Made by a program: the position numbers and the translations under genes
Assembly: GCA_001804785.1 (NCBI GenBank)
Contig: MHBG01000073.1
Coordinates: 1 to 64,000, forward strand
Direction of reading: 5' to 3'
Source of the DNA: Lentisphaerae bacterium GWF2_45_14
GTDB taxonomy: Bacteria > Verrucomicrobiota > Lentisphaeria > Victivallales > GWF2-45-14
DNA length: 64,000 bases
Notes under the pieces: model-generated
Told to the model about the DNA's origin: nothing
Databases searched by the model: none
Seen by the model: only the letters and a program-made list of their open reading frames with translations
Shown: positions 4,831 through 46,294 of the stretch, one piece after another
Layout of the letters: every line of letters starts with the position of its first letter
Position numbering within the stretch: the stretch's first letter is position 1

Positions 4831-4872
4831 GTAAAAGTTCCTCCGTTGAGAAATGAAAATGGAGAAAGTATC

Positions 4873-5244: not shown

Positions 5245-5268
5245 AGCTGAAAAACGGAGGAATAAAAA

Positions 5269-5703: not shown

Positions 5704-5766
5704 CCTTTAAATCATCATTGATGTATGGTATAGTAGCAAGACAGATTTTAATACGGGAGAGACAAT

Positions 5767-8153: not shown

Positions 8154-10289
8154 ATGAGGATGCTTATGTTTTTAAGGGGGATGCTTTTTCCGCTGGTTGC
8201 GGCGTTTTTCGCTTTTCTTCCATCATCGGTTGCCCGAAGCGATGCGGATCCTGAAGTCTTTTCGTACATATCATGTGGCACTTTTGAGTACAATGGCAAG
8301 GCTAATTTCAGGGTTCAGAATGCCGGAATCATTGATGTGATGCGGCAGAAGGTAGCGGATGACGATTTTTCATATACCTTCATGACCCGCACGAAGATGA
8401 TGCTCGGCGATAATCAGAAAAACGCAGAGATCGAATCCCCTCCGTTTATCGTGGCACGCGACAAGGCAAACAGCCGTCTTACGGGCGGACTTGACTGCCT
8501 GAAGGACTTCGGCGATGTCGGAAACGAGGCGCTTGCACTCACCGGAAGCCGGGTCATTACAGATAATAAGTGGCGGCATTATGACCTTCCGATGGGGACG
8601 ACGAAGTTTTATCCCACTACCCCTGGAATAAATGTAAAATATCGCTATATCGAGAGCAAGACCCTCGGCCCCTGCGTGCTTACTACTGCCTCAACGGACT
8701 TTTTCGTCTGCGAGATTCCCGATGAAAAGCGTTTTCTTTCCGGAATGTTCAAAGTAGTCATGCTTTCCGACCCTACGATGCGGAAGATGTATTATCGCTG
8801 TTCGGGTTACGAGGCCAGGTCGGGAGATGAACAGGTAAATGCGAAGGACAATTTCTGGCTGAGTTCAAGCCAAACCGGGGGGCCTGTCAATATTTCCGAT
8901 ATCAGAAGCGAGCTGGATGCTGAACTTGCTTCAATTTACATGCCTGACAAAGGAATTCTGAAGACTGATACTACGGTTCCGCCGTGGGCTGTCCACGCCT
9001 TATCGGTTAAGCGTTATATGGACACTGTTACCGGCGCGGTTATCGAAGGCCAGCCGAACTTTGCCATAATGGCGACTATCGCCGGGGTACTTCTCGTTGA
9101 TTCGGCGGTAAGTCTCGGTTCTGAAGTTCTAGCCTGGGGCGTTAAAAAGGCATTTAACAAGGATATCCCCGTTTATCAGGGTATTCCCAATTATATAGGA
9201 CAGGGGATTGGATGGGGTTCTTCCAAAATATACGAAAAAGCTACGGGCAACAAGGCCGACACTGCAAAGTGGAAGAAGATAGGCGGCGATATCTCGGATA
9301 TAGCTTCGATGTTCATCTCTCCCAGGATAATGAACAAGGGTATTCAGGTGATTGGCAAAAGTGTCAAGTTTATTGATTCGACTGTGGACGCGCTCCGAAT
9401 AGGTAAGCATGCGCTTTCCATAAAAGTCGTTGACATGATAGGCAAATTCTTCAACTGGAAGACCGGCATACAGAAAATACTTGATTATGCTCCATCGGTT
9501 ACTGGTCTATGGGGCGGCGGTTCAGGAGGAACAACTCCCGGTGCTCCTGGAAGTTCAGGCGGGCAGGGGGGAAGCAGCGGCGGAGCTCGAGGACCGCCGG
9601 GCGGAATCACGTTCGAGGGCGATGCCGGGAATCTTGACGTGAAGACGGTAAGCTTTTTTCCGACGGAGAATAAATTTATGATCAACGGAGGAATATCATA
9701 CAAAAATCCGCTCAGGCCTTCATCAATGGCCGCGGTAATGAAGCATGTGGCGGATGATGAGACATTCGGGGTTTCCCTGGCGGGGCGGATTGCCGGAGAG
9801 TCTAGTGATGCCGAAATCCGCAGGGTGCTTGAGCTTTGCGACCGCTTCCTTGGGAATGTAATATTCGGAAGGCCTGAAAAAGTCCCGGAAGGCTGTAAAA
9901 TTGATCCGGCGGTAAGGCTTGAAAGTGTTTCGGATGACAAGCTCGGCACCATTTGTGTCCACTTCAGTTTTAAATGCATTTTAAAAGTGGACGGCAGTGA
10001 ACTTAAACGTGATTCGGCCTCCATTGGAATTGAGCTTCTGCCCAATGATCCGGCGAAGGCTAAATCCGGCACTTATGAGTATGCAGATAAGTCGGTAATG
10101 GATAAAACCGCTCTTAACGTTTATGAGAAAAATAAGACTGATTTCAACCAGAATTACTATATGTCCTTGCCTGCTGTGGAAAATGTTGTAGATTATGCGG
10201 AAGCAGTTGCTTTCGCCCGTTCGCTCCGCAGAAGCGGGGTCGATTTGAAGAGGCTTTCGTCTGAAATACTCCTAAATTCAAAAGATTGA
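8154..10289 (+). CDS. Exported protein of unknown function with Gly-rich linker
   Basis: A 711-residue protein from the ATG at 8154. A longer form from a TTG at 8073 would place about 27 residues before an evident signal peptide, so I prefer a start at 8154 or the nearby ATGs at 8160 and 8166. The signal peptide ends near VARSDA. An N-terminal domain of about 270 residues is followed by a hydrophobic stretch near residues 303-319. A Gly/Ser/Pro-rich linker at about residues 454-484 leads to a C-terminal domain of about 220 residues. I do not recognise the domains. It is the first gene of a same-strand run of exported proteins, with the TolB/CsgG-like-FGE fusion 11 bases downstream. It is probably a periplasmic or surface component of that system. 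Confidence 0.7.
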   Translation: MRMLMFLRGMLFPLVAAFFAFLPSSVARSDADPEVFSYISCGTFEYNGKANFRVQNAGIIDVMRQKVADDDFSYTFMTRTKMMLGDNQKNAEIESPPFIVARDKANSRLTGGLDCLKDFGDVGNEALALTGSRVITDNKWRHYDLPMGTTKFYPTTPGINVKYRYIESKTLGPCVLTTASTDFFVCEIPDEKRFLSGMFKVVMLSDPTMRKMYYRCSGYEARSGDEQVNAKDNFWLSSSQTGGPVNISDIRSELDAELASIYMPDKGILKTDTTVPPWAVHALSVKRYMDTVTGAVIEGQPNFAIMATIAGVLLVDSAVSLGSEVLAWGVKKAFNKDIPVYQGIPNYIGQGIGWGSSKIYEKATGNKADTAKWKKIGGDISDIASMFISPRIMNKGIQVIGKSVKFIDSTVDALRIGKHALSIKVVDMIGKFFNWKTGIQKILDYAPSVTGLWGGGSGGTTPGAPGSSGGQGGSSGGARGPPGGITFEGDAGNLDVKTVSFFPTENKFMINGGISYKNPLRPSSMAAVMKHVADDETFGVSLAGRIAGESSDAEIRRVLELCDRFLGNVIFGRPEKVPEGCKIDPAVRLESVSDDKLGTICVHFSFKCILKVDGSELKRDSASIGIELLPNDPAKAKSGTYEYADKSVMDKTALNVYEKNKTDFNQNYYMSLPAVENVVDYAEAVAFARSLRRSGVDLKRLSSEILLNSKD

Positions 10290-10299
10290 AGAAGAAAAA

Positions 10300-12168
10300 A
10301 TGAGAATATTTTTTATAATAGGTACGGTCTTTTTGTCTTTTATCACATTTCTTTCCGCGATAGAAAAAAAAGAGACTGCGGCTGTACACGATTTCAATGT
10401 CACTCCGGCTCTCACAAAGCTTAATATCTCGCCCTGGTGGCTGTCCGAGAGGATGGAAAATGAGCTTGTCCAATCAGGAAAATACACGATGATTACGAGG
10501 GCCAGGATTGCCCGTGTGCTTAAGGAGCAGAACATATCATCCGGCCCGGAGCTTAAGCCGCAGGAACTTGGGAAAATAAGCGGTGCTCAGTACATTGTTA
10601 CTGGACAGGCCGACTACTCCGGCGGGCGCATAAATATCGTTGTGAATATCATTGATGTTACAGTCAAGGCCGGTGAGATTAAGAGGAGTTTTGATATTTC
10701 CGTATTTTCGCCGGAGCAGGAGGTCGCATCGCGGCTCCCTGAGCTTCTGGAGAAACTCGCGAAGAAGCTCTCAATGACACCGGGCGAATTTCTCGAGCAA
10801 GGCCTTGAGATGATGAAAGCAGGCGATTACGAAAGGGCTGTTCAATGTTTTCAGGAGCTTGGACGTGAGGCCGATATGCAGAAGATAGCGTCGCTGACGA
10901 AAATGGTAAGTCAGAAGCAGCTTGAGAAAGAGGCGGCGGCAGTGACGGTATCTGGCGAAACTCCCGGTGAAATGCTTGATTACGGATTGAATCTGATGTA
11001 CAATGGCGACCTTAACAAGGCAGCACTGGTTTTCTATCGGCTTCAGAAAAGCAAGATGGGCCAGGAGATAGGAAATCTGATGAGGGCCGCGAAACACGGG
11101 GCTAAAAAGAAAGAGGAGGTAATAACTACTCTTATTGATTCGGCACGGAAAAAATTTGAAAACGCAATCGTAAGCCGCGATGAGAAGGAGCGCCAGAAGG
11201 ATCCAACTCTTCTTTGCGACGAGGCAGTAACGGAGCTTCAGGCTTTCCTGGGAAACCCGAAAGTACATCTGTCCGATGACGAGAAACGCCGGATAACGGA
11301 TTTGATAGGTGAAATAGAGTCGTTCCGAAAGAAACTTTTTGCTGGTCCGTCGAAGGACAGGGCCTGGGCGATTCCCGGTCTCAAAATGGAATTTATTCCT
11401 GTCGCCGCGGGTTCTTTTACTTCTTCGGGCGAGGGCGCAAAAGAAGACAGGGTTGAACACGAATATACGGTCAAAATAACAAAGCCTTTCTGGATAGGGA
11501 AGTATGAGGTAAGTGTCGGCGAATTTCTCTATTATCTCAAGAGCAATTCGGGGCTCAATCGGAACGAGCGTTTTGAAATAAACCGCGATATAGATTTCGA
11601 ATCGCCAAACTGCCCCATTAATGCGTCATACCAGATAAAAAAGGGCTTTTTGCCGGATATGCCGATGAGCTGCATAAGCTGGCGCGGTGCGAAGAAATTC
11701 TGCGAATGGCTGAGCGCATCGGAAAAAAAAGAAGGGCGGCTTCCCCTCAATTATGAGTACCGTCTGCCGACAGAGGCCGAGTGGGAGTCAGGGTGCAGGG
11801 CTGGTACTAAGACGGCTTTCTCTTTCGGGGACACTACTCAGGGCCTGGAGAATTACGCCTGGTACCGCAATAATACTTCGGGGCATCAGGAAAAATGCGG
11901 AACGAAGCAGCCCAACAAATGGGGTATTTACGATATGCACGGCAATCTGTGGGAATGGTGTTATGACTGGTATAGCGATACGTTCGTCGTGGCGGACTCT
12001 GAAGATCCGCGCGGACCTGATTCCTCGACCGACAACCTGAAAGTTCTTCGAGGCGGGTCTTTTACTAGCGAGCCCGTGGATTTACAGTGCGGTTCACGCT
12101 ATTGTTTTGACTTTAAAACGTCTAAGAAAAATATCGGGTTCAGGGCGGTATGCGCCCCCGAGCTGTGA
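10300..12168 (+). CDS. Exported TolB/CsgG-like domain + TPR-like repeats + FGE-sulfatase domain
   Basis: A 622-residue protein in three parts. After a signal peptide (to about residue 20), residues 27-137 look like the alpha/beta domain of TolB-N/CsgG-type proteins: a DFNV strand, a helix, YTMITRARIARVLKEQ, then the GAQYIVTGQ pattern. Residues about 164-253 hold two TPR-like helical repeats with a GDYERA / GDLNKA signature. Residues about 358-622 are a formylglycine-generating-enzyme (FGE-sulfatase) fold: MEFIPVAAGSF, RLPTEAEWE, GNLWEWCYDWY and RGGSF near 587. Most bacterial members of this fold are not true FGE enzymes; many bind or modify other partners. The gene follows the upstream one by 11 bases. 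An envelope role linked to the CsgG-like genes downstream is inferred. Confidence 0.8.
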   Translation: MRIFFIIGTVFLSFITFLSAIEKKETAAVHDFNVTPALTKLNISPWWLSERMENELVQSGKYTMITRARIARVLKEQNISSGPELKPQELGKISGAQYIVTGQADYSGGRINIVVNIIDVTVKAGEIKRSFDISVFSPEQEVASRLPELLEKLAKKLSMTPGEFLEQGLEMMKAGDYERAVQCFQELGREADMQKIASLTKMVSQKQLEKEAAAVTVSGETPGEMLDYGLNLMYNGDLNKAALVFYRLQKSKMGQEIGNLMRAAKHGAKKKEEVITTLIDSARKKFENAIVSRDEKERQKDPTLLCDEAVTELQAFLGNPKVHLSDDEKRRITDLIGEIESFRKKLFAGPSKDRAWAIPGLKMEFIPVAAGSFTSSGEGAKEDRVEHEYTVKITKPFWIGKYEVSVGEFLYYLKSNSGLNRNERFEINRDIDFESPNCPINASYQIKKGFLPDMPMSCISWRGAKKFCEWLSASEKKEGRLPLNYEYRLPTEAEWESGCRAGTKTAFSFGDTTQGLENYAWYRNNTSGHQEKCGTKQPNKWGIYDMHGNLWEWCYDWYSDTFVVADSEDPRGPDSSTDNLKVLRGGSFTSEPVDLQCGSRYCFDFKTSKKNIGFRAVCAPEL

Positions 12169-12205
12169 GTAATTGGTTAAATCGTTTTGTTTGAATCCCA
12201 AATCG

Positions 12206-12234
12206 TTGAAAAAGGCGTGGTTGTGCAGTATACT
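12206..12234 (+). promoter_or_regulatory. Sigma-70 promoter for the repeat-protein operon
   Basis: TTGAAA at 12206-12211 and TATACT at 12229-12234 are 17 bases apart. It lies between the FGE-domain gene and the first repeat-protein gene (ATG 12288), giving a leader of about 47 bases, so the repeat and CsgG-like genes can be transcribed independently of the two genes before them. Confidence 0.65.
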
Positions 12235-12287
12235 CAATAAAGGAGTTTTGTGTTTTGTTTGCAAATTTTTCACAAAAGAGGGATGCA

Positions 12288-13160
12288 ATGAAAGCTTTAT
12301 TTCTGATGGTCTCTATTGCTTTCATTTTGGAGGTTCAGGCACTGCCAAAGAACGGTGCGTCCGGAACCGAGGTCAAGGATTCTTTTATCATTAATGAGAA
12401 TAAGGATGTCAAAGTCAATTCCTCGAATCATTCAGCGGTGAATACCGGGATACAGGCGAGAGGTGCGGTGATAAGGGACTCGGAACTGTCCAATAAATTC
12501 ACGGGGACCGTGAACGCACGGAACAGTTCGTTTGTAAATACCGGGATAAAGGCCGACGGCGCGGTGATAAGGAATTCGGAAATAAATGTGGATACCGATG
12601 CGAATATCAGCGCCGATCGTTCGGTCGTCAAGACCGGGGTTGACATAAGCGGTGCATCAAATGCCAAAATAAATACCACATACGGCGGGAATATAGATGC
12701 ATCGAACACGACCGTTAAGGCCGGTTCGGTGGAGGGCAATGTCAGAAATAAGAAAGTCACGACAAATGTGAATGAGAATATAAATGCAGCCGGAAGAGGG
12801 GTGATTATCGGAACGGTCAAGGACGGCGGCGGCAGGCCTTCTGTTTATAATGACACCAAAGGGCTTGATTTCAGCAAGCGCGGCGACGGTCCGGCGGCGA
12901 GAATAGGGAATGTCGATATAGAGGGCGGCCAGGTGCGAGAGGTCAAGACCTCCGTCGGTACCGGCAATGTTGTCGAAGGCGTGAAGACGCGTCACATGGC
13001 AAATGTCTATAAAGAAACGGGCGGAGTCGACCCGAGCGGGACCAAGCACGTCTACGTAAACGCAAAAGAGAAGGAAAAGGCGAAAAAGACCGGTGGAGCT
13101 GTCGGAAATACCACCGTAGCCGATCCAAGAATCAAAAGGGTAAATACCTATGTTGAGTAA
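12288..13160 (+). CDS. Exported N/T/S-rich repeat protein (fibre-subunit candidate A)
   Basis: A 290-residue protein with a signal peptide ending near VQALPK. About residues 30-150 consist of imperfect repeats of 31-34 residues. Each has an acidic or polar start (DSFIINENKDV, NSEINVDTDANI), then an S-x-V-N-T-G-I-x-A-x-G-A-V-I-R core. The core is clearly related to the INSGI repeats of the proteins at 16247 and 19256. The repeat style fits a beta-solenoid or amyloid-like fibre, analogous to but not matching the curlin repeat (S-X5-Q-X-G-X2-N-X-A-X3-Q). The C-terminal half is less regular and rich in K, G and V. ATG at 12288 follows GAGGG; an upstream alternative start lacks support. The 3' end overlaps the CsgG-like gene by 11 bases. 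A secreted substrate of the CsgG-like proteins is inferred. Confidence 0.75.
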   Translation: MKALFLMVSIAFILEVQALPKNGASGTEVKDSFIINENKDVKVNSSNHSAVNTGIQARGAVIRDSELSNKFTGTVNARNSSFVNTGIKADGAVIRNSEINVDTDANISADRSVVKTGVDISGASNAKINTTYGGNIDASNTTVKAGSVEGNVRNKKVTTNVNENINAAGRGVIIGTVKDGGGRPSVYNDTKGLDFSKRGDGPAARIGNVDIEGGQVREVKTSVGTGNVVEGVKTRHMANVYKETGGVDPSGTKHVYVNAKEKEKAKKTGGAVGNTTVADPRIKRVNTYVE

Positions 13161-14724
13161 GGCCTACAAAGTTTTAATATTGTCCATGGGAGCGGCGTTG
13201 CCCCTGTTATGCTCTTCCTGCGGCTGGTTCGGTGCTGAGATTAATGATCAGGAAGTGCTTGACATGGACAATGAGATGAAGGCCGAAAAGAGGACGACCG
13301 TTTTCGAGGGCGCACTCCGCGATTTAGGCGAAATTCTTCTGGCCTATGACATTCCCAGGACTGTCGTCCAGAGCAAGAACGTCGGCAATCAGACAGCAGA
13401 GAAGAATCTGCCGAGCGACCTTTATACAATGATAGCCGCGACCATAAGCAAGGTCGGCCCGCAGATTGTTTTCGTTCCATACGACGCCCAATACGTGATC
13501 AGCGAAGCGACCACAGGTGGTACAATAACGAGACTTTACCCTCAGGTGGTCATCGCGGGCGGAATTACCGGGTTCGACAAGGAAATGTTTGAGAAGGAAC
13601 GCGAAGCTGAAGCCTCCGGCGGCTGGGCGGGCGCCCAAGGCGGGGGGCGCATATCGGCGTCATCTGAATATTCTCGTCTGACATTGGATCTGAACATGCT
13701 GGACTACAAGACGCAGGCATACTTCCCGGGCGTGATAGCGTCAAATGCCATAGCGCTTACAAGAAGCAAACTTGGCTGGGGCGTTCATGCCTATTATATG
13801 GGTAATGGCGGGTCATTCGATTATGAACTCAAGAAAAAACAGGGCGTTCATGCTGCTTTGCGCACGTTGACGGAGTACAGCATTATAGAGCTTTTGGGTA
13901 AATATTTTGAGGTTCCCTACTGGCGTTGCGTCCCCGGTGCGAATTCCGATGACGATATGCTGAAGAGGATCAAAGACCGGTTTGTCGAGCAGCAGAAGGA
14001 GCGTCAGATGCTCATGATAAAGAAGATGCTCTTCCTACACGGCTTTAACGGGCTTGACAGGGATGACCCCGTTTTCAAGGGCAGCGAGGAAGGTTCGCTG
14101 AAAGAAGGAATGCGGCTTACCTCGACATCGAATTTGCCTGACCTTTATGTTGCGCTGTGGAAAAGTGTTCCGCTCAAGTCCGCGGCCAGACGCGTAATGA
14201 TAGACCGCCGCCGCAGGGCCAAGGAGGCGCATCTGAAAAACGCAGAACTCGCGAAGGTCGCAGCTGCCAAGGCGGCCGATCAGGAAAATGCGAAGAAGGC
14301 CGCTGCTGAAGAACACCGTCAGAAGGTAGAAAAATATAATGCGCACATAACGAGGGCCGACAGACTTTATCAGGAAAAGAAATATGACGAGGCATTGAAG
14401 GAGTACGGCGAGGCACGCTACCTTTTTGGCGGCGAACAGTATCCCGCGCAGATGATAAATACCATAAGTCAGATACTTTCACAGCGGAAGGCTGCTGATG
14501 ACAATTATCGTAAGGGGATTGAATATGCCGACAGTCTTTACTCTTCCGCAGAGTCGGCCAGCTTTAATTACACAAGCTATAAAAAGGCGCTCGCCGCCTA
14601 TGAATCAGCTTTGAAGCTTAAGCCGCAGGACAATTATCCGGCGGAAAAGATTAGTCTTATAAAAAGCAAAATGAGCAAATACAGTACTGTTCTTGAAAAA
14701 GGAAATGGAGATAACGAATGGTAA
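13150..14724 (+). CDS. CsgG-like lipoprotein with C-terminal TPR region (copy 1)
   Basis: A 524-residue predicted lipoprotein: the signal sequence ends in LLCSSC (candidate lipid-bearing Cys at residue 24, with an unusual Cys at -3). Residues about 40-270 follow the order of CsgG/HfaB-type outer-membrane secretion lipoproteins. A strand-helix domain comes first, then a PQVVIAGGITGFD segment, a Gly-rich stretch and RLTLDLNMLDYKTQ, ending in ALRTLTEYSIIELLGKYF, which resembles the terminal helix of CsgG. An Ala/Lys-rich coiled coil (about 355-390) leads into TPR-like repeats (about 395-510). CsgG forms a nonameric outer-membrane pore that exports curli subunits. Neighbours on both sides are repeat proteins, and the next gene is a paralogue. 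The CsgG assignment rests on pattern only. Confidence 0.6.
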   Translation: MLSKAYKVLILSMGAALPLLCSSCGWFGAEINDQEVLDMDNEMKAEKRTTVFEGALRDLGEILLAYDIPRTVVQSKNVGNQTAEKNLPSDLYTMIAATISKVGPQIVFVPYDAQYVISEATTGGTITRLYPQVVIAGGITGFDKEMFEKEREAEASGGWAGAQGGGRISASSEYSRLTLDLNMLDYKTQAYFPGVIASNAIALTRSKLGWGVHAYYMGNGGSFDYELKKKQGVHAALRTLTEYSIIELLGKYFEVPYWRCVPGANSDDDMLKRIKDRFVEQQKERQMLMIKKMLFLHGFNGLDRDDPVFKGSEEGSLKEGMRLTSTSNLPDLYVALWKSVPLKSAARRVMIDRRRRAKEAHLKNAELAKVAAAKAADQENAKKAAAEEHRQKVEKYNAHITRADRLYQEKKYDEALKEYGEARYLFGGEQYPAQMINTISQILSQRKAADDNYRKGIEYADSLYSSAESASFNYTSYKKALAAYESALKLKPQDNYPAEKISLIKSKMSKYSTVLEKGNGDNEW

Positions 14725-16199
14725 TCATGCTGAAAAATGGAAAGAGATTCTCGTGCGCAATCGCGAAGGTGGCCTTCTGCATCGCGTTGGCGGGGGCGCT
14801 CTCATCGTGTGCGGTTGTCGACTGGTTCATGGGAAAGACCAGCGATGAGGAAGTCAAGGAGATGGATAACGAGATCGCGCAGTCAATGACAGCGAAGAAA
14901 ACCCCGTATGATGAAGCCTTGAGGCAGTTTGGCATGATGTTGGACGCCTATAACATTTCCGAAGTAAGGGTTCAGAGTAAACTCATAAGCAATCAGACCG
15001 CTGAAAAAGAGCTTCCCGACGATGTTTCACGGATGCTTATTTCCGCGGTGAATAAGATCAGTAAAAAAGTCGTGTATATTCCGTATGACCCGAGCTATGT
15101 CCTCAACGAGGCCAATACAGGCGGCGACATTGCCAGAGCGCTGCCCCAGATAGTTCTTTCCGGCGGCATAACCGAATTCGATAAGGACCTTATCGAAAAG
15201 GGGCGCGAGCTCAAGGCCGAAGCCAGTGTCCAGAAAGGCGATTACGGCTCGAACTATTCGCATGACGGCGGGGCCGGTTACCAGGCGGAGTCTGGTGTAT
15301 CAAGGATAACGCTTGACCTTCAGCTGCTCAACTACAAGACGCAGACCTATCTGCCCGGCATTCAGGGCATAAATTCAGTAAATATAAGAAAGACGAAGCT
15401 CGGCTGGGGCGTGGGATATTTCTTCCAAGGCTCCGGAATGTCTTTCCAGTATTCGCTCCAGCAGAAACAGGGCAAGTACCAGGCGCTTCGCCTTCTTGTG
15501 GAACTCAGCGTGCTTGAAGTCATGGGGAAATATTTCGACATTCCTTACTGGAAGTGCATCCCCGGTATGCCTGCCGATAACGCCATGATTTCCAGAATCC
15601 GTGAGGAGTTCGCCTCGCTGGATGACGCCAGGCAAAACTTCTTTATAAAGGAATACGCCTATTTCCACGGCGAGACCGCTTTCGATCGACAGACTTCATC
15701 AATGAACGCTTCTGAAATGGCGCTTCTTGATCAGCTTATGAAAAAAAATAACTGTGCCGACAGGGCCGATCTCTTCGTTAAGCTGTGGGAAACTGTCCCG
15801 GTCGAAGATGCCATAAAGCGTAATAAGGACTATGCACGCGAGCTTGCCAAAAAGGCAATGGCGGCGCGCGAGGAGGCCGGAGAAAAAGCTTCCCAGTACA
15901 ATGCACTGATCTCACATGCCGATACCCTTTTCAGTTCAGGCAGGCTTGATGAGGCCAGAGAAGCCTATAGAAAGGCCAACAGTATATTCCCCGACCAGAA
16001 AGATCCCGTTGATATGATGGTCAGGATTGATAAGCAGATGGCTGCCAAGAATCAACAGCAGGCAGCTCCCGCCGCGAATCCACCGGTGGTGACGATGGCA
16101 GCCCCTCAAGCCCAGCCTGCGGATTCTGCCGAGAAACAAAATACGGGAACCAAGAAAAAGGAGGCCCCGCTTAACCCGTTTAAGCAGGTCGACTGGTAA
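14718..16199 (+). CDS. CsgG-like lipoprotein with C-terminal TPR region (copy 2)
   Basis: A 493-residue paralogue of the preceding gene, collinear through the CsgG-like part. Shared blocks include VQSK..xNQTAEK.LP, YDxxYV, EAxTGG, PQxVxxGGIT, RxTLDLxxLxYKTQ and GKYF.xPYW+C.PG. The lipobox is canonical (LSSC, Cys 31). The C-terminal part has one or two TPR-like helices (about 390-435), followed by a Pro/Ala/Gln-rich tail. The start ATG overlaps the stop of copy 1 by seven bases and has GGAG upstream, so the two are translationally coupled. Tandem copies suggest a hetero-oligomeric pore or two pores with different substrates. The next gene is the most regular repeat protein, at 16247. Confidence 0.62.
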   Translation: MVIMLKNGKRFSCAIAKVAFCIALAGALSSCAVVDWFMGKTSDEEVKEMDNEIAQSMTAKKTPYDEALRQFGMMLDAYNISEVRVQSKLISNQTAEKELPDDVSRMLISAVNKISKKVVYIPYDPSYVLNEANTGGDIARALPQIVLSGGITEFDKDLIEKGRELKAEASVQKGDYGSNYSHDGGAGYQAESGVSRITLDLQLLNYKTQTYLPGIQGINSVNIRKTKLGWGVGYFFQGSGMSFQYSLQQKQGKYQALRLLVELSVLEVMGKYFDIPYWKCIPGMPADNAMISRIREEFASLDDARQNFFIKEYAYFHGETAFDRQTSSMNASEMALLDQLMKKNNCADRADLFVKLWETVPVEDAIKRNKDYARELAKKAMAAREEAGEKASQYNALISHADTLFSSGRLDEAREAYRKANSIFPDQKDPVDMMVRIDKQMAAKNQQQAAPAANPPVVTMAAPQAQPADSAEKQNTGTKKKEAPLNPFKQVDW

Positions 16200-16246
16200 A
16201 AATATGGTACAAGTATAAGTCCAAACAAAAATAGGAGGATTCGAAG

Positions 16247-17137
16247 ATGAAAATGAAACAACTGTTAGTGCTCGTAGGAATCGGAATGATGTCGGCGTCC
16301 CTCATGGCGTTGCCGGACAGCAGCGGCGGCGGTGGAACGACTACCGTGAAGGATTCGACAATCATCAATACAAATCAAAACGTAACCAATACGGCTCAGG
16401 ATGAGTCCAAGATTAACTCCGGTATCAAGGCAAGAGGGTCCACGATACAGAATTCAACTCTTATGAACGATAACAAGGACGTTGTCAATACCGCTATAAA
16501 TCGTTCGAAAATCAACTCCGGTATTGAAGCAAACGACGCGACAATAAAAGACTCCACTCTCATTAATACAAATAAGAACGTGAACAATACCGCAGTGAAT
16601 GAGTCAACGATTAATTCCGGTATCAGCGCGAACAGTGCGGACATTAAGAATTCAACGTTGATCAATGACAACACGAATGTGAATAATACCGCCCTCGAAA
16701 AATCAAAAATTAATTCCGGTATCAGTGCGGACGGATCCACTATTCAGGATTCGACAATCCTTAACACAAACAAAGACGTGAACAATATGGCCGTAAACGG
16801 TTCAACAATCAATTCCGGCGTAAACGCGGATAATGCGACCATAAAGAATTCAACGCTCATGAACGACAACCAAAACGTAAATAATACCGCTATAAATGAG
16901 TCCAAAATCAACTCCGGTATCAATGCCGAAGGTGCTGATGTTAAGGATTCTACCCTTATCAATACAAATAAGGATGTGAACAATATGGCGAGGGATGGTT
17001 CGACAATCAATTCCGGTATCAGCGTGAAGGGTGCCACAGTCAATAACTCCACGATAATGAACGACAACAAGAACGTGAACAATACCGCCACGAACAAGTC
17101 CGAAATAAATTCCGGTGTTGATCTCGGCGGAAATTAA
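16247..17137 (+). CDS. Exported 33-residue-repeat protein (fibre-subunit candidate B)
   Basis: A 296-residue protein with signal peptide (cleavage near MA-LPD), a Gly-rich spacer and then, from residue 37 to the end, seven full and one partial 33-residue repeats. The consensus is S-T-[IL]-[ILM]-N-[TD]-N-x-[ND]-V-N-N-[TM]-A-x3-S-x-I-N-S-G-[IV]-x-A-x2-A-x-[IV]-[KQN]-[ND]. The T/D position alternates strictly: units 1, 3, 5, 7 read NTN and units 2, 4, 6, 8 read NDN, a 66-residue super-repeat. It is almost free of aromatic residues and Cys, and Asn-, Ser- and Thr-rich like curlin and other beta-solenoids. AGGAGG precedes the ATG at 16247. It lies between the CsgG-like pair and the LPP20-like genes. 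A secreted polymer subunit is the best guess. Confidence 0.8.
   Translation: MKMKQLLVLVGIGMMSASLMALPDSSGGGGTTTVKDSTIINTNQNVTNTAQDESKINSGIKARGSTIQNSTLMNDNKDVVNTAINRSKINSGIEANDATIKDSTLINTNKNVNNTAVNESTINSGISANSADIKNSTLINDNTNVNNTALEKSKINSGISADGSTIQDSTILNTNKDVNNMAVNGSTINSGVNADNATIKNSTLMNDNQNVNNTAINESKINSGINAEGADVKDSTLINTNKDVNNMARDGSTINSGISVKGATVNNSTIMNDNKNVNNTATNKSEINSGVDLGGN
16355..17134 (+). repeat. 99-base coding tandem repeat, seven full units and one partial
   Basis: Tandem 99-base units inside the 16247 gene, starting at 16355 with an 87-base last unit. Units share short words such as AATTCCGGTAT and GTGAACAATA but differ at many silent positions, so the repetition is old and kept at the protein level. 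Confidence 0.9.
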
Positions 17138-17156
17138 TCTGTAAATGGAACGCAAT

Positions 17157-17585
17157 ATGAAAAAAATTCTCATAATGGCGTTCATGACGGCGCTGTCCCT
17201 GCTGGCCAGCGGGGATAACCGCCGTCTGATGGCTGAAAGGGTAAAGGAGCTTCAGGAGCTCAATCGCCAGGTATTGGAAAAAATCAAGGGCCTTGAGCAG
17301 TACAGCGGCAAAGATATCTACGTCAAGGTGAGAGTCGTCCAGAAACCTGACGGAAGCTCCGTGGCTATCGTCGATAAAATATCTATTGACAAAATAGAAT
17401 TGGACCCTGCCGATGTCGCCGGGAAGGTGCTTTATCTTAAGGGTACTGTATCTAAATCATTGGATGACAGTGTATTCAAGCTTGACCTTGAACACGTTTT
17501 GCCCGAAGAAGGTGATGCGGCAGCGGGAAAATCGGGCGCTGAAGCGTCAAAGAAAAATCAAAAGGAAGGCAACGGTAAAAAATGA
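17157..17585 (+). CDS. Small exported protein, unknown function
   Basis: A 142-residue protein starting MKKILIMAFM with a signal peptide to about residue 19. A helical, probably coiled-coil segment (RRLMAERVKELQELNRQVLE) follows, then a beta-rich domain (VKVRVVQKPDG, VAIVDKISIDKIEL) and a Lys/Glu-rich tail. An upstream ATG at 17145 is possible, but the start at 17157 gives a standard signal peptide with GGA upstream. It overlaps the next gene by four bases (ATGA). No family is recognised; its position suggests a periplasmic helper of the repeat-protein/CsgG-like system. Confidence 0.65.
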   Translation: MKKILIMAFMTALSLLASGDNRRLMAERVKELQELNRQVLEKIKGLEQYSGKDIYVKVRVVQKPDGSSVAIVDKISIDKIELDPADVAGKVLYLKGTVSKSLDDSVFKLDLEHVLPEEGDAAAGKSGAEASKKNQKEGNGKK

Positions 17586-18391
17586 TGATTAGACGAATTA
17601 TTTTTCTTCTGGCGCTGGTATTGACTCTTTCGTCTGCCATGGCGGACAGTAAGAAGCTCAATTCTGTTAATTGCGCCAGAGTGCTCGCCGAGCGAAGCAT
17701 AGTCGAAACTGTTTATGGCGTTAAAATTCGCTTTATCGAGGAGGTTACAGATCTCAGTGAGGGCAATTTTCTCGGCACCACAGAGACGAAGACGGGAAAG
17801 CGCGCCATAAAAGGGATAGAGTTTATGGAGAAGTATGATCCGAAGACGGACATCGCTCAGGTCACCGCCATTCTGAAGCTTAAAAGGATAGCCGATATAG
17901 TCGATATGGAAAAGTTTCAGCTGGACAAGTTTCCCAATAAGGCTGTACGCAGAACGGCGTTCGCATCGTCAACCCCTGCGAATGCGAAGAAGCTGGCCGC
18001 TCTCAGGGCCGCGGAGCTAGACGCCTACAAAAATCTCTACAAGAAAATCGGGGGCTTTACTCTCGAAAGTCAGAGCAAGGTGGAAAACTTTGTTCTGAAG
18101 TCGGATGTGGTCAAGTCTACGGTTGTCGGCGCACTTATGGGCGCTGAATATATGGGCTTTGCCTGGGACGGCAAAGGCGACAGTGCCGAGGCTGTAGTGA
18201 AGGTTCGCCTCAATCTCCGTGAGCTTTCTGAAATGCTTGGAGAAAAGATAATCGACTATGATGGCGAATATGTCGAGGCCGAGGGCAGGGCGGCGCAGGC
18301 TGATATGGTCGCTTCTCAAAAGAAAAGCCCGGATAAGCCAGGGAAAGTAACGACCGACGTCATAGAGGGTAATATCGAGGTAATGCCCTAG
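17582..18391 (+). CDS. Exported LPP20-like domain protein
   Basis: A 269-residue protein with signal peptide (cleavage near AMADSK). Residues about 130-225 show the LPP20/FlgP-type pattern: LAALRAAELDAYKNLYKKIGGFTLESQSKVENFVL-type helix-strand (shown here only in outline), then SDVVKSTVVGALMGAE and a valine-rich strand AVVKVRLNL. LPP20-domain proteins include Helicobacter Lpp20 and Vibrio FlgP, envelope proteins of which the latter forms part of the outer-membrane flagellar disk. Here there is no lipobox Cys, so it would be soluble in the periplasm. Its start overlaps the preceding stop. The N-terminal 110 residues are not recognised. Whether it serves the flagellum or the neighbouring fibre-like system is open. 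Confidence 0.65.
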   Translation: MMIRRIIFLLALVLTLSSAMADSKKLNSVNCARVLAERSIVETVYGVKIRFIEEVTDLSEGNFLGTTETKTGKRAIKGIEFMEKYDPKTDIAQVTAILKLKRIADIVDMEKFQLDKFPNKAVRRTAFASSTPANAKKLAALRAAELDAYKNLYKKIGGFTLESQSKVENFVLKSDVVKSTVVGALMGAEYMGFAWDGKGDSAEAVVKVRLNLRELSEMLGEKIIDYDGEYVEAEGRAAQADMVASQKKSPDKPGKVTTDVIEGNIEVMP

Positions 18392-18409
18392 TTTTTTATA
18401 GGTGCTCAA

Positions 18410-19237
18410 ATGTATCGCAGAATTTTCATATCATCTGTTCTTGCATTCTGGCTTCTTCCTTCGGTCAGCTGTCTGGCCGAATCCTACGAGAAGCTGGACA
18501 AGAAAATTGTAGACGCCTACAACTCCGAACCAAAGCGGATGCAGGATGTCTATGTCTATGCCATGCAGATTCTTGAGCGGACGCGTCTTGATAACTCAGA
18601 CGACTCTTCCCAGTGGGAGGATAAGGCGCAGAAGCTTGTTACCGTCGCGGCCTATGGTGAAACAGACCGCGCCATAGATAATAAGGACTACCGCGAGGCA
18701 TACGTCTGGGCGATGCGCGGGATTACCAACGGCGCGTCGCGCGGAGAGATTGACGGAGTGACGATGAAACAGGTTTACGACGCACTGAAGGACCTAGCCG
18801 ACAAGCTTGCCCGAGAGCCCGTTGTAAAGGAAATGAAGTACGGCAAAACCATGCAGGAAGTTCTTGATTACCGGAAGGTGCGCAAGTCAAGCGATTACCT
18901 TCCGCGCGACAAAAAAGACGTTGCCGGTCGACCTGAAATTAAGGAGAAAAATTATCAGCTTCTGGAAGGCCCCTCACAGGATTCGAGCGGGAATCTTTAC
19001 GTTAAAGTAAAATACGATTTCGGCGCGATTATAACGATACGGTATTATGTAAAGCGCGGCTGGAAAAATATTAATCTGCCGGATGCTTCAGCGGATGCCC
19101 CTTATTATTTGTCGTGGCAGGAGTGCGCTGACGCGAACGCGGATATATCGAAGTTGAGGAATGCGCCGGAGCCAGTCAGGAAAAAAGATCCGGGAAAGAA
19201 GCTTTATTTTGAAGAGGCGAAGCCTTCCGAATTATAA
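18410..19237 (+). CDS. Exported protein, unknown function
   Basis: A 275-residue protein with a signal peptide (to about residue 24, SCLAES). Residues 25-150 are largely helical, with a MQDVYVYAMQILERT segment and many charged residues. The second half is mixed, with a strand-rich part (NLYVKVKYDFGAIITIRYY) and a basic, Pro-rich tail. A Cys in the signal region is not placed as a good lipobox. ATG at 18410 follows AGG and lies 18 bases after the LPP20-like gene. I do not recognise a family. Context puts it in the exported-protein cluster. Confidence 0.6.
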   Translation: MYRRIFISSVLAFWLLPSVSCLAESYEKLDKKIVDAYNSEPKRMQDVYVYAMQILERTRLDNSDDSSQWEDKAQKLVTVAAYGETDRAIDNKDYREAYVWAMRGITNGASRGEIDGVTMKQVYDALKDLADKLAREPVVKEMKYGKTMQEVLDYRKVRKSSDYLPRDKKDVAGRPEIKEKNYQLLEGPSQDSSGNLYVKVKYDFGAIITIRYYVKRGWKNINLPDASADAPYYLSWQECADANADISKLRNAPEPVRKKDPGKKLYFEEAKPSEL

Positions 19238-19255
19238 GGAATAGGAGTGGGAAAA

Positions 19256-19948
19256 ATGAAGAGGAATATTATATCTCTATTCGTAATGTTGTCGGCAGCT
19301 GGTCTTGCCGGTGAAAATGTTATAAGCAACGTCCGTGAGAATGTTGTAAATATCCAGGACTCCGGTTCTTCGGTCAACAGCGGCATAAGCCTTGGCGATA
19401 AATCATCCGAGAGCGGAATGATTAAGGGAAATGGGGAAAGAGCATCTGTAAAAAGGGAAATAGCGTCGTTTGATTCTATCAGCGTTTCCGGTGCATTTAT
19501 CGTCAATATTGAAATAACTTCCGGCACGAAAATGGAACTCGAAATAACCTCAGACTCGAATATCGCTGACTGTATAGGGACAGATGTCGAAAATGGAATC
19601 CTTACAATTTCCACGTCTAAATCCTATTCATCAGAAAATCCCGTGTCGTTCAATATAAAGTTATCTTCACTGAAAAATATTGCCTGCGGCGGCGCATGCA
19701 AAGTTACAATTTCAGGGAAAACGGAGAACCTTTCCGTGGAGCTGAGGGGCGCATCTAAACTCAGCGCTTTGGGACTTGATGCCGCGAATTTAGTGATTGA
19801 AGCAGGCGGGGCTTCCCATGCTGAAGTGTCTGCATCAAAAAGTCTTACGGTTAATGGCTCCGGTGCGGCGAAGGTGCTGTACAAGGGGACAGCCTCAAAA
19901 ATAACGAAGGAACTCAGCGGCGCGTCGTCGCTGGTTAATATGGAATAG
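19256..19948 (+). CDS. Exported repeat + GIN-domain (DUF2807-like) protein (candidate C)
   Basis: A 230-residue protein with signal peptide (near AGLAGE). It then carries one copy of the cluster's repeat signature (NVRENVVNIQDSGSSVNSGI). From about residue 60 it has a DUF2807 (auto-transporter adhesin head GIN) domain: the opening FDSISVSGAFIVNIEITSG, then short right-handed beta-helix rungs with GGACKVTISGK, LRGASKLSAL and the closing GAAKVLYKGTASKI. DUF2807 domains occur in exported surface proteins. Start chosen at ATG 19256 with AGGAG upstream; an upstream GTG is less likely. The join of the repeat motif to a beta-helix adhesin domain suggests a cap, anchor or nucleator of the fibre made by the other two repeat proteins, in analogy with CsgB; this is inference. 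Confidence 0.72.
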   Translation: MKRNIISLFVMLSAAGLAGENVISNVRENVVNIQDSGSSVNSGISLGDKSSESGMIKGNGERASVKREIASFDSISVSGAFIVNIEITSGTKMELEITSDSNIADCIGTDVENGILTISTSKSYSSENPVSFNIKLSSLKNIACGGACKVTISGKTENLSVELRGASKLSALGLDAANLVIEAGGASHAEVSASKSLTVNGSGAAKVLYKGTASKITKELSGASSLVNME

Positions 19949-19964
19949 AAGGAATAGGTTTAAT

Positions 19965-21152
19965 ATGAGAAGTTTGCTGGTTTTTCTGATGGTATTTACT
20001 GCGTATCTTCTTTATGCCGAGGGTGAAGTAGAGGTTGTGGGGCGCGGCTCCGGAAATCCTGATACCGCCCGTGAGCTTGCGCTTGCCGATGCGTTGCGGA
20101 ACGCAGTGAGGCAAGGAGCGGGGGTTGATATTCTCAGCGAGAGCAAGGTACAGAATTTTCAGATGGAATATGACCGCGTGATGACGTCTTCATTCGGTTA
20201 TGTTGAGGATTACGAAATCATATCGCAGAATTATGACAAGGCAAAGAGCGAATACACCGTGAAGCTCAAGGCGAAGGTCTCGAAGGGCAGTCCTCAGATG
20301 GATAAGGTGCTCGCGCTCAGGCTCCTCGTGAGGAGGATGCAGTCGCCGCGCGTAATCGTTGAGTGTAAAGAAGATATAGCAGGCGAAGGTTTCTCTGGGG
20401 ATGGAGCCTTGACTGCCGCCTTACTTGAGGAAATGGCCCAGAAAACAGGCTTTGAAATATTCAAGGAATCGACAATAAAAGCGAGAGACGATAAGGAGGC
20501 GTTGAGGGCTGAGCTTCTCGGTGATGACTTCGAGTCGAAGGTAAAAAGGGCAGGGATTCAGAGTACTTCAGATTTCAAGATAATAGCGAAGGTCAAGGGC
20601 CAGGTCGGTCAGATGAAAGAGCCCTTTCCTGACGTGAAGGTCAGGGATGTCGCGCTGGGTGTTGACCTTCAGGCTGTCTGGGCCGATACCGGAGAAGTCG
20701 CAGCTACGGTATCTCTCCCAACCACTTACCACAAGGGAGAAAGCCAGATGAGTCTCCCCTTTGATATGCCTCAGCAGCTTGTAAGGCACTACCTTCTCAC
20801 AATGCTTTCCGGCTCGGAACCGGCGTTTAAGGACAACAATGCGTACAATCTCTTTCGCCGCATTATCGCCAAGTGGATAACGGAACTTGATCTGGGCGCG
20901 AAGGTACAGCTCGAATTTAAGCAGATTGACAAGGATAGTCTCAATAAATTAATGGCTGCACTTGAGAAAACACCGTCCATATCCTATGTCTGGCGTAGAG
21001 AATTTGATAGAAGGCTTTTTTCCATAGTCGAGGTCGAGACAAGGCTCACTCCTGAGCAGCTCGAGGATGCAGTCCTTAAGAATACGAACGGCAAATACGT
21101 TACCGAGACGGCCACAAAGCGTCGTCTGCGTTTCTCACCTGTAAAAAAATAA
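19965..21152 (+). CDS. Exported FlgT_N/LPP20-like protein
   Basis: A 395-residue exported protein (signal peptide to about residue 18). Residues 20-110 follow the FlgT N-terminal/LPP20 pattern: EVEVVGRGSGNPDTARELAL, ALRNAVRQGAGVDILSESKV, then SFGYVEDYEIISQNYD and YTVKLKAKVS. The middle part (about 115-260) has a TolB/FlgT-M-like alternation of strands and helices (RVIVECKEDI, FEIFKESTIK, FKIIAKVKGQVG). The C-terminal 130 residues are unassigned. In Vibrio, FlgT builds the H ring around the basal body, but related proteins occur in non-flagellar envelope operons. It starts 17 bases after the GIN-domain gene. It shares the cluster's direction, so I treat it as part of that system while noting the flagellar alternative. 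Confidence 0.65.
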   Translation: MRSLLVFLMVFTAYLLYAEGEVEVVGRGSGNPDTARELALADALRNAVRQGAGVDILSESKVQNFQMEYDRVMTSSFGYVEDYEIISQNYDKAKSEYTVKLKAKVSKGSPQMDKVLALRLLVRRMQSPRVIVECKEDIAGEGFSGDGALTAALLEEMAQKTGFEIFKESTIKARDDKEALRAELLGDDFESKVKRAGIQSTSDFKIIAKVKGQVGQMKEPFPDVKVRDVALGVDLQAVWADTGEVAATVSLPTTYHKGESQMSLPFDMPQQLVRHYLLTMLSGSEPAFKDNNAYNLFRRIIAKWITELDLGAKVQLEFKQIDKDSLNKLMAALEKTPSISYVWRREFDRRLFSIVEVETRLTPEQLEDAVLKNTNGKYVTETATKRRLRFSPVKK

Positions 21153-21189
21153 ACATCACAAAAAATAAAATGACAAGGAGAACAAATCC

Positions 21190-21552
21190 ATGCGGAAAAT
21201 TTTTATTTCTGCAACCGCCGGAATCACGTTACTGATGATTCTCACCGGATGCTTTTCGGCCCCGGCCGGAATAGCGGCCTCAACAATGCCGATAACATCC
21301 AAGGACAGCTACACCATCGTGAGAAGGAATGCCGAAGGCTCTGACTGGCGGGTAGTCCTGCTGGGAATTCCGCTCGGTCCGCTGAGTGCACATGATGCCC
21401 TTGAAGACGCCAAGAAACAGAACAATGCGGATGCACTTGTAAACGTGACAGGAGAGAACAGATATAAGTTTTTCCTGCTTCTATGGACAGAGCAAATGAT
21501 AATACAAGGCGATGCAATCAAATTCCGTGTCGCAGGCGAAGATGTTGAATAA
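21190..21552 (+). CDS. Small lipoprotein, paralogue pair member 1
   Basis: A 120-residue lipoprotein: the signal sequence ends in LTGC (Cys 21). The mature part holds the block MPITSKDSYT, then LLGIPLGPLSAHDALEDAKKQNNADALVNVT, and ends in IKFRVAGEDVE. The same blocks occur in the next gene (TPITSKDTYT, LGVIPLGPQSPSRYARDNAI, GNALIEVT, IKFERKGADIE), so the two arose by tandem duplication. The general plan (short lipoprotein, GADALINV-type motif) resembles TRL-like proteins of unknown role. AAGGAG precedes the ATG at 21190. Confidence 0.75.
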   Translation: MRKIFISATAGITLLMILTGCFSAPAGIAASTMPITSKDSYTIVRRNAEGSDWRVVLLGIPLGPLSAHDALEDAKKQNNADALVNVTGENRYKFFLLLWTEQMIIQGDAIKFRVAGEDVE

Positions 21553-21573
21553 CTGATTTACGAGAGGCTGATA

Positions 21574-21930
21574 ATGAAAAAAATACTAATAGTTTTTTGT
21601 GCGGCGGCGCTGCTTGCAGTTACCGGTTGTACGAGCATGATTACAATGGCTCCGTCGTCGACCCCGATAACGTCTAAAGATACCTACACCAAGCTAGGGC
21701 CTACAGTCGGCAGAGCTGCCTGTGTAATCATCTTAGGGGTAATTCCGCTCGGTCCGCAGAGTCCTTCCAGGTATGCCAGGGATAATGCAATCGAAAATAA
21801 GGGCGGAAACGCCTTGATAGAAGTAACACAGGAGTATAATGTAATGAATCTTCTCGTCGTTCAGTTTTCTTGGACGAAGGTAGAAGGAGTAGCTATAAAA
21901 TTTGAACGCAAAGGAGCAGACATAGAGTAA
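21574..21930 (+). CDS. Small lipoprotein, paralogue pair member 2
   Basis: A 118-residue lipoprotein with lipobox VTGC (Cys 19), paralogous to the gene 21 bases upstream over its whole length. The shared features are the P-I-T-S-K-D-x-Y-T opening, the LGxIPLGP segment and the closing I-K-F-x-x-x-G-x-D-[VI]-E. The third lipoprotein gene begins two bases after its stop, so these are one operon. Function unknown. Confidence 0.75.
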   Translation: MKKILIVFCAAALLAVTGCTSMITMAPSSTPITSKDTYTKLGPTVGRAACVIILGVIPLGPQSPSRYARDNAIENKGGNALIEVTQEYNVMNLLVVQFSWTKVEGVAIKFERKGADIE

Positions 21931-21932
21931 TT

Positions 21933-22520
21933 ATGAAAAGATTCAAAGCCCCCCTCTTTTTTGCCGTCATATTGTTGGCGGCCGGATGTAACTCGACTTT
22001 CATGCCGTCGGCAGATCCGAACATGTCGGATCTGACTCAGTCTCAGACACAGGAAATATCCAAGCGGAAAATTCATGTTCCGTGCAGGGTTGAGGTCCAT
22101 TGTGATGACAGTCTGGTCGGACAGCGTGATTCGCTTTTCTTTACAAACTATTATTACTACCCTCTCAAAGCTATATTGACTAACAGCTTCCGGAGCGCGG
22201 CCTATCAGGTCTTCGACCAAGCGGGCGGTGAAGTCATAGATGCCTTTACTATCCATGTGTCGGTTCCTGAATCGAACCTTGACGTGGCTTGGGGAAAGGC
22301 CAACTATACTTTGCAGATAATAGTTCGCTTTGACGAACCCGGTGAAAAGAAGATTACCGCTTTTTCGGTTACCAAAAGCGCCCAGGTGCCGTTCATGGAT
22401 GGAAACAAAGTACCGGAGGCCGTATACAATACCTGTCGCGATGCGGCTTTTGAAGCTGTTCAGCAGATGCTGAAGAGCCCTAAGCTCTGGGCGACAATAA
22501 AACGATTTGAAGACCGCTGA
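21933..22520 (+). CDS. Lipoprotein, unknown function
   Basis: A 195-residue lipoprotein (LLAAGC, Cys 19). After a polar linker the body is a mixed alpha/beta domain with IHVPCRVEVHC, SFRSAAYQVFDQAGG, TLQIIVRFDEPG and a C-terminal helix. It has the general look of small outer-membrane-associated lipoproteins that probe assembly, such as YajG or LptE, without a convincing motif for either. It starts two bases after the preceding stop. Confidence 0.65.
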   Translation: MKRFKAPLFFAVILLAAGCNSTFMPSADPNMSDLTQSQTQEISKRKIHVPCRVEVHCDDSLVGQRDSLFFTNYYYYPLKAILTNSFRSAAYQVFDQAGGEVIDAFTIHVSVPESNLDVAWGKANYTLQIIVRFDEPGEKKITAFSVTKSAQVPFMDGNKVPEAVYNTCRDAAFEAVQQMLKSPKLWATIKRFEDR

Positions 22521-22547
22521 TAATAAAAAAATGGGGGAGATTGGATT

Positions 22548-22853
22548 ATGAAAAACTTAACGTTTGCCGCCGTATTTGCGGGAGTTTTTGTCTTTGCCGG
22601 CATAGGGTTCTACAGCTATGCCAGTAATGGAGGTGGAGCACCGAATATAACGCCGTCTATTACAACCTCGCGTTTTTTGATGTTCGGCGCGCCATATACA
22701 GTAAAAAGCGAACTTAAGGGCGAAGCCGCGTCTTCCGAAAGCGGAGTTTTCCGGATAGACACTTATACCGGCAAAGTCTGGGTATTGCGTACTATGAAGG
22801 CCGAAGACGGCCAATCCGTTCAGAAGTGGCAGCTTATCGAGGACAACAACTGA
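22548..22853 (+). CDS. Small exported or membrane-anchored protein
   Basis: A 101-residue protein with a hydrophobic N-terminus (about residues 3-25), either a signal peptide or a membrane anchor. A Gly/Pro/Thr-rich spacer follows, then a small C-terminal domain with FRIDTYTGKVWVLRT, a pattern like one blade of a beta-propeller or a tip domain. GGGGGAG precedes the ATG. It is the last gene of the exported-protein cluster; its stop lies six bases from a displaced copy of the rlmN 3' end. Confidence 0.6.
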   Translation: MKNLTFAAVFAGVFVFAGIGFYSYASNGGGAPNITPSITTSRFLMFGAPYTVKSELKGEAASSESGVFRIDTYTGKVWVLRTMKAEDGQSVQKWQLIEDNN

Positions 22854-22981: not shown

Positions 22982-23770
22982 CTAGATGTCCTCTTCTTCT
23001 AGATAGAATATAGAAGAAGATTCTTTTATAGATTCTATGGCTTCTCCCAAAGAAATTATTTGATTGTCTTTTAACCTTTTTGCCAAAACCACGATTCCAT
23101 TTTTAAATTCCAGCCATATCCCGTAACTTACAAAAGTTCCATCCCATAAATCTCCATCTTTATATATGCCTTTTGCTAACAAGTGGCTTGACGAATCATA
23201 CCACAGAGCCTCCCCATCAGGCTCACCCTGCTGATTATAGTTTATGTTATATCTCACATTTTGATTTTTATAATATTTGATATCATGGCCAACCGTTTTA
23301 CCATCTTTATAATAAGTTATAGATCTTCTATTCCCATTTGAATACCATGTCTCAGCCAATCCATCCAGCAAACCATCTTTATAATGACCCCTTTCCCACA
23401 ATTTTCCTTGTGAACTGTAGGATTCAAAAAGGCCATTTTTCTTCCCACCTAGATAATAAACATCAATATCTTTTATCCCATCCGGATAATATTTTATAAA
23501 TCTTCGCGGTGTTTTAAAAAAGAATCTATTTTGCGGCTTCTCTTTTCCGCCATACACATCATATATAGCTTCGGAATAAAACCATATAAATTCACTTCTG
23601 CACCGTAAAAATTCATAGGGTTCATACACGACATACATGATTTTGCCTAATCCTACACGTTCAGATAATGGCAACAGTATTGGGTATAATAAAAGATACA
23701 TTAGTATAACAGCAAAAGAATAGATTAGAATTCGGCTCTGCTTATAAAATTGTGTAAATGGTAAATTCAT
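22982..23770 (-). CDS. Membrane-anchored MORN-variant (YwqK-like) repeat protein
   Basis: A 262-residue protein with an N-terminal membrane segment (about residues 12-35) and, from about residue 95, repeated MORN-variant units. Examples are GGKKNGLFESYSSQGKLWERG, DGLLDGLAETWYSNGNRRS and DGKTVGHDIKYYKNQNVRYN; this is the pattern of the YwqK family, often labelled antitoxin component. Base composition is much richer in A+T than the neighbours, with Lys and Tyr from AAA and TAT codons, so recent acquisition is likely. It lies between two near-identical copies of the rlmN 3' end, as if inserted there. ATG at 23770 follows AAAGG. The biochemical role of YwqK proteins is not settled. Confidence 0.75.
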   Translation of the reverse strand: MNLPFTQFYKQSRILIYSFAVILMYLLLYPILLPLSERVGLGKIMYVVYEPYEFLRCRSEFIWFYSEAIYDVYGGKEKPQNRFFFKTPRRFIKYYPDGIKDIDVYYLGGKKNGLFESYSSQGKLWERGHYKDGLLDGLAETWYSNGNRRSITYYKDGKTVGHDIKYYKNQNVRYNINYNQQGEPDGEALWYDSSSHLLAKGIYKDGDLWDGTFVSYGIWLEFKNGIVVLAKRLKDNQIISLGEAIESIKESSSIFYLEEEDI

Positions 23771-44266: not shown

Positions 44267-44289
44267 ACCTGAAAGGATATAATGACATC

Positions 44290-45438: not shown

Positions 45439-45453
45439 CTCAGGAGAATTCTG

Positions 45454-46267: not shown

Positions 46268-46294
46268 ATAATTTATATATAAAGGGATTGGAAA

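Follow-up and report, generated by a model that had tools for sequence, protein, structure and literature searches.

A conserved cluster of exported proteins in Lentisphaerota that pairs CsgG-like lipoproteins with a predicted solenoid repeat protein

Introduction

Does a row of genes for exported proteins, with CsgG-like lipoproteins and repeat proteins side by side, encode a curli system, or does it put a similar pore to another use? Curli serve as the standard example of controlled amyloid secretion. If CsgG pores had a second lineage, with repeat subunits of an unrelated kind, one could tell what is general in such secretion (the pore) from what is replaceable (subunit, chaperone and plug). 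Many "DUF4384" and hypothetical proteins that lack an annotation would gain a name and a way to be tested, and the lineage could supply solenoid building blocks and CsgG-type pores that are new. CsgG is in use as a sequencing nanopore. The question is raised here by a locus on contig 73 of a draft genome of 3.77 Mb, which is 89% complete and has Lentisphaerae and Victivallales MAGs as its closest named relatives; "the window" in the following means the whole stretch of DNA that was analysed, 64,000 nucleotides. An earlier note on this DNA had proposed a curli-like polymer system with different subunits and accessory factors.

Gene content and arrangement

Fifteen open reading frames (g01 to g15, Table 1) follow each other on the plus strand between positions 8154 and 22853. 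The N-terminus is strongly hydrophobic in all fifteen proteins, and g05, g12, g13 and g14 have a canonical lipobox, so that the consecutive same-strand genes for exported proteins listed in the earlier note are indeed present. The very short gaps and overlaps that it also reported are found between all neighbours (-11 to +47 bp) with the sole exception of g02 and g03, which are 119 bp apart. A promoter-like site, recognised by its match to the consensus only, lies within this long gap, and the cluster may therefore consist of two transcription units split at this point. For g03, g07 and g10 the better start positions are given (12288, 17157 and 19256). Rfam and tRNA scans of the whole window came back empty.

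Table 1. Genes of the cluster and one putative regulatory site (window positions)
Feature	Start	End	Strand	Description
g01	8154	10289	+	711-aa exported protein; no Pfam family
g02	10300	12168	+	exported; TolB/CsgG-like half domain, TPR-like region, FGE-sulfatase domain
promoter-like site	12206	12234	+	in the g02-g03 gap; consensus match only
g03	12288	13160	+	exported minor repeat protein (putative role), degenerate INSGI-type repeats
g04	13150	14724	+	CsgG-like outer-membrane lipoprotein, paralogue a; TPR tail
g05	14718	16199	+	CsgG-like outer-membrane lipoprotein, paralogue b; PG-binding-like segment, TPR tail
g06	16247	17137	+	exported major repeat protein (putative role), eight 33-aa repeats, predicted beta-solenoid
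g07	17157	17585	+	small exported protein; position conserved
g08	17582	18391	+	LPP20-like exported protein; position conserved
g09	18410	19237	+	exported protein without assigned family; position conserved
g10	19256	19948	+	one repeat-like unit, then DUF2807 head-GIN adhesin-like domain
g11	19965	21152	+	FlgT_N-like exported protein
g12	21190	21552	+	small lipoprotein
g13	21574	21930	+	small lipoprotein, paralogue of g12
g14	21933	22520	+	lipoprotein without assigned family
g15	22548	22853	+	small protein, hydrophobic segment at the N-terminus; closes the conserved cluster

Several domain assignments made from the sequence alone were borne out: g02 joins a partial CsgG/TolB-like domain to an FGE domain, g11 is FlgT_N-like, the lipoproteins g12 and g13 are paralogues (37% identical), and g08 resembles LPP20 with a match that stays below the Pfam cut-off (E 6e-4). 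Flagellar genes lie on either side of the cluster, at 4846-6093 (apparent flgB, flgC and fliE, read by eye) and at 44233-47983 (FlgI and FlgK, by Pfam). Right behind the cluster, at 22982-23770 on the minus strand, is a gene for a protein with a variant of the MORN repeat.

The CsgG-like proteins

The earlier claim of two tandem CsgG-like lipoproteins needed a better test, because the Pfam CsgG family (PF03783) matches neither g04 nor g05 at E<=1; a homologue from Campylobacterota scores 20.0 bits against a curated cut-off of 20.8. The g05 protein was modelled by AlphaFold with 30 homologues, and the model, whose core is confident, was compared with the PDB using Foldseek. All 25 of the 25 best matches are CsgG, with a best E-value of 1.6e-7 and a probability of 1.00, at TM-scores of just 0.4-0.57 when normalised to the target. 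The model has low confidence in the region of the CsgG pore hairpins (residues 160-191 and 227-249). A comparison at the profile level covers this region as well. When the g04/g05 family, including homologues from other phyla, was aligned with an 11-sequence CsgG alignment, the two were collinear over 240 columns, pore-hairpin segment included, with P 1.4e-7. A repeat run gave P 1e-7, while the best of 30 column-shuffled controls reached 0.07 and the reversed control 0.13. Earlier comparisons of this kind had been weak (P 0.004-0.008), and significance came only with the homologues from other phyla; a search of PDB sequences with the g04/g05 profiles returned TPR proteins only. By fold and by collinear profile match, g04 and g05 are CsgG homologues, as the earlier note had supposed, and the structural comparison it had called for, that of the product of the gene at 14718 with CsgG, ended in a match. 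That they form a pore is something we infer, since the model has low confidence at or close to the hairpins that make the barrel in CsgG.

The two proteins are paralogues, 40% identical to each other. When a tree is built from the core, a branch with support 100/99 divides paralogues a from paralogues b, which is consistent with a single duplication in Lentisphaerota. The lipobox cysteine is invariant in a 30-row alignment of the family, and g04 reads CSSC where its relatives read LSSC. Behind the core, some distant homologues have a PG_binding_1 domain above cut-off (L100, L107 and L104) and others a weak match; the corresponding PG-binding-like segment of g05 was placed by alignment at about residues 304-360. 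The C-terminal part consists of TPRs in the Lentisphaerota proteins and of DUF4384 in many of the proteobacterial ones.

After CsgG, FlgT and PelC rank next among the structural matches of the g05 model. Together with the FlgT_N-like and LPP20-like domains of g11 and g08 and the flagellar genes that flank the cluster in the window, this would suit a periplasmic scaffold of the envelope, in which the CsgG-like lipoproteins and their FlgT_N-, LPP20- and TolB-like partners build, for example, a ring for the flagellum or for cell wall synthesis and the repeat proteins are exported no further. We regard such a scaffold as improbable: the E-value for CsgG is better than that for FlgT by about three orders of magnitude, the relatives examined have no recognisable flagellar genes beside the cluster, and exported repeat proteins with GIN adhesin-like domains are a better fit to a role at the surface.

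The repeat proteins

The earlier note counted three repeat proteins, of which g06 is a strong case, g03 a degenerate one and g10, with its one unit, a marginal one. In g06 a near-perfect unit of 33 residues occurs eight times, with a super-period of 66 residues, and none of 500 shuffles matched its repeat score. The structure prediction suggested for the repeat proteins was run on g06, and the AlphaFold model is a regular beta-solenoid with a pLDDT of about 97-99 across most of residues 31-290. No close solved amyloid or solenoid was found for it in the PDB (TM-scores of at most 0.28 among the ten best-ranked matches). AlphaFold rather readily yields confident solenoids for near-perfect repeats, and for this reason the predicted fold is likely rather than established.

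The g03 protein belongs to the g06 repeat family by a genome-wide profile match (E = 7.5e-20); taken by itself, it has no significant periodicity (p = 0.12). It has a conserved basic tail that ends in motifs of the type IGxV..REV. A family shared by the g03 tail and its proteobacterial counterparts with such motifs, which are likewise encoded upstream of CsgG-like genes, was considered, and is kept as a suggestion only, given best E-values of about 0.04 and about 0.08 in the two directions. After the signal peptide, g06 and g03 have a stretch in common, read from the sequences, that begins with ALP... and continues with TxVK.S.I.N. In g10 the DUF2807/GIN domain is recognised by Pfam with E = 3e-22. 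NCBIfam has no family for g03, g06 or g10.

In two related clusters the repeats are attached to much larger proteins: an 835-aa protein in L046 ends in g06-type repeats, and in L050 the g03 sequence forms the C-terminus of an 846-aa protein. The repeat thus appears to act as a module that is joined to other cargo. Directly before these two proteins, and inside the cluster, are RHS-repeat proteins of about 1015 aa (L046:4811-7867 on the minus strand and L050:5033-8080 on the plus strand). This arrangement could point to a contact-dependent or toxin-delivering surface system in which the solenoid repeats serve to display large cargo. Such a function is very improbable for the cluster as a whole, as the large proteins are found in only two of the clusters. 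The large g01 of the window had been a candidate for a homologue of them, and was rejected: no relation was detected and no repeat was seen in it.

Conservation in Lentisphaerota

Of 120 related genomes, roughly one in eight was found to have homologues of g04 and g05, mostly as tandem pairs. Six near-complete clusters in other Lentisphaerota MAGs have nearly the same order of g02 to g15, and shorter contigs agree. The order is identical in L039 and L041; L043 and L044 also have it, with two extra g06-type genes, and the L044 cluster begins with g04, where its contig ends. In L045, g02 was not found and there is one extra repeat gene. In L050, g02 stands at the end instead, no g10 was found, and the g03 sequence is part of the larger protein mentioned above. 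Since gene order is conserved across genera, the clustering is far beyond chance, and g02 to g15 can, on this conservation of order, be taken as a functional unit. While g02 is linked to the cluster in most relatives, g01 is tied to it in one genome only: the single orthologue found for it (31%) is in the cluster of L045, between g05 and g06. It is a candidate accessory protein or cargo.

The repeat itself is nearly confined to the cluster. In seven Lentisphaerota genomes, 21 of the 22 strong matches to the g06 repeat are inside it. The one exception is a g06-like gene at L108:6657-7343 (contig 8 of G105), which lies beside several genes for exported proteins.

A lone, divergent CsgG-like gene, 24% identical to g05, is present at L052:9164-10696 (G015), with no repeat or cluster genes nearby.

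Comparison with known systems and proposed mechanism

CsgG has been noted as a member of a larger family (PMC3521004), and curli, the type VIII system, are the obvious comparison. In both cases the gene of an outer-membrane lipoprotein with the CsgG fold adjoins genes of exported repeat proteins that are rich in N, S and T and predicted to be beta-solenoids. The repeat units differ, however, with 33-37 residues here and an average of 23 +/- 5 in curlin (PMC10192328). Neither curlin repeats (PF07012, CsgA/CsgB) nor CsgE or CsgF were matched in the genome that carries the cluster (draft, 89% complete), and curlin repeats are likewise missing from the cluster proteins. In addition, the cluster has two CsgG paralogues, with an extra TPR tail and PG-binding-like segment, and about ten more exported proteins. 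Because these curlin, CsgE and CsgF searches gave no match, the cluster is, on sequence comparison, not a curli system by its subunits or accessory proteins. It is best read as a new form of export that depends on a CsgG-type pore. We found no description of a CsgG-like pore paired with solenoid repeats in open-licence papers, which agrees with the earlier remark that the arrangement was not recognised as a described system. As for its curli-like polymer, the different subunits and accessory factors have held up, and the polymer, like its passage through the pore, is something we infer from homology, signal peptides and the predicted solenoid.

The mechanism that we propose, with a probability of roughly 0.6, is a CsgG-type system for export and assembly at the outer membrane. 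One or both of the g04 and g05 lipoproteins would form a ring of the CsgG type and insert a beta-barrel into the outer membrane, and the PG-binding-like segment and TPR tail at the periplasmic mouth of the ring would fix the pore to the cell wall. The periplasmic parts of g04 and g05 would also receive the substrates, which is the role of CsgE in curli. Repeat proteins exported by Sec would cross the pore unfolded, possibly with the stretch common to g06 and g03 as an export signal. Outside the cell g06, the putative major subunit, would fold into a beta-solenoid with rungs of 33 residues and stack into a fibre or surface layer; g03 would be a minor subunit that nucleates or caps it, and g10 would contribute the adhesive part with its GIN adhesin-like domain. 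The remaining exported proteins and lipoproteins may be chaperones, plugs or anchors.

A CsgG relative can also serve surface proteins that are not curlins. In the holdfast anchor HfaABD of Caulobacter, the CsgG relative HfaB directs HfaA and HfaD to the cell surface and anchors polysaccharide (PMC6707917). The gene content of that system differs from the cluster described here, and g10 differs from other DUF2807 head-GIN proteins, with which it shares the domain, in its linkage to CsgG-like genes and its repeat-like N-terminal unit. By analogy with HfaABD, the solenoid and GIN proteins might form a patch that tethers a capsule, holdfast or S-layer and makes no fibre. The PG-binding-like and TPR parts, which suggest a large fixed complex, would suit such an anchor, and so would the GIN-domain proteins that are found beside CsgG-like genes in distant loci too (L096, L098 and L105). 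We nevertheless consider the anchor unlikely. When the genes around the cluster were read by eye in relatives, none was recognised as serving polysaccharide synthesis. With its near-perfect repeats, and sometimes with two or three gene copies per cluster (L043 and L044), g06 looks more like a major structural subunit, as the export and assembly mechanism would have it.

Related loci in other phyla

When 84,980 species genomes were scanned, g05-like genes outside Lentisphaerota and related MAGs turned up in two Campylobacterota genomes and in one MAG of Thiotrichales, and more came to light with wider sampling. At these distant loci, all six matches to the g06 profile (E<1e-3) lie no more than 1 kb upstream of the CsgG-like gene, a placement with P 4e-6 relative to all ORFs, or 3e-5 when the near-duplicate L078 is left out. 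Most of the distant CsgG-like genes, in Campylobacterota and Gammaproteobacteria, have an exported protein with a period of 32-37 residues upstream, recognised by periodicity alone; this is unclear at L098, L103 and L104. The genome-neighbourhood survey that the earlier note had proposed has thus shown repeat genes and CsgG-like genes together in many other genomes, in Campylobacterota and Proteobacteria with a reduced version of the pairing. Neither of the two outcomes that the note had named as refuting its reading was obtained.

A similar locus is in a cultured organism that could serve as a host for study, Azospirillum lipoferum 4B, on its plasmid AZO_p4 (NC_016587.1, L110). Here the CsgG-like gene (L110:5953-7524), annotated only as a DUF4384 protein, is preceded by a small exported protein with a 37-residue period (L110:3954-4247) and a second small exported protein, and an OmpA-family gene follows downstream. 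In A. ramasamyi, the upstream genes that were read include no repeat protein of this type. Proteobacterial DUF4384/PG-binding proteins of this kind resemble g04 and g05 in their CsgG-like core and in their position just downstream of exported proteins with a 37-residue period. They differ in having a DUF4384 tail in place of TPRs, and most accessory genes of the cluster were not seen beside them.

The distant loci and the cluster may belong to a separate and widespread non-curli class of CsgG-dependent surface assembly, for and against which we see an even balance. It would combine solenoids of 32-37-residue repeats with CsgG-like pores to which PG-binding, TPR or DUF4384 parts are joined, and it would span Lentisphaerota, Campylobacterota, Gammaproteobacteria and Alphaproteobacteria. 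The Lentisphaerota form would be an elaborated one, in which the pore is duplicated and about ten accessory proteins are present.

A caspase-domain protein (L079:7320-8684) and, at L096:14233-16593 and L098:42-2747, proteins partly similar to it are encoded close to CsgG-like genes of Gammaproteobacteria.
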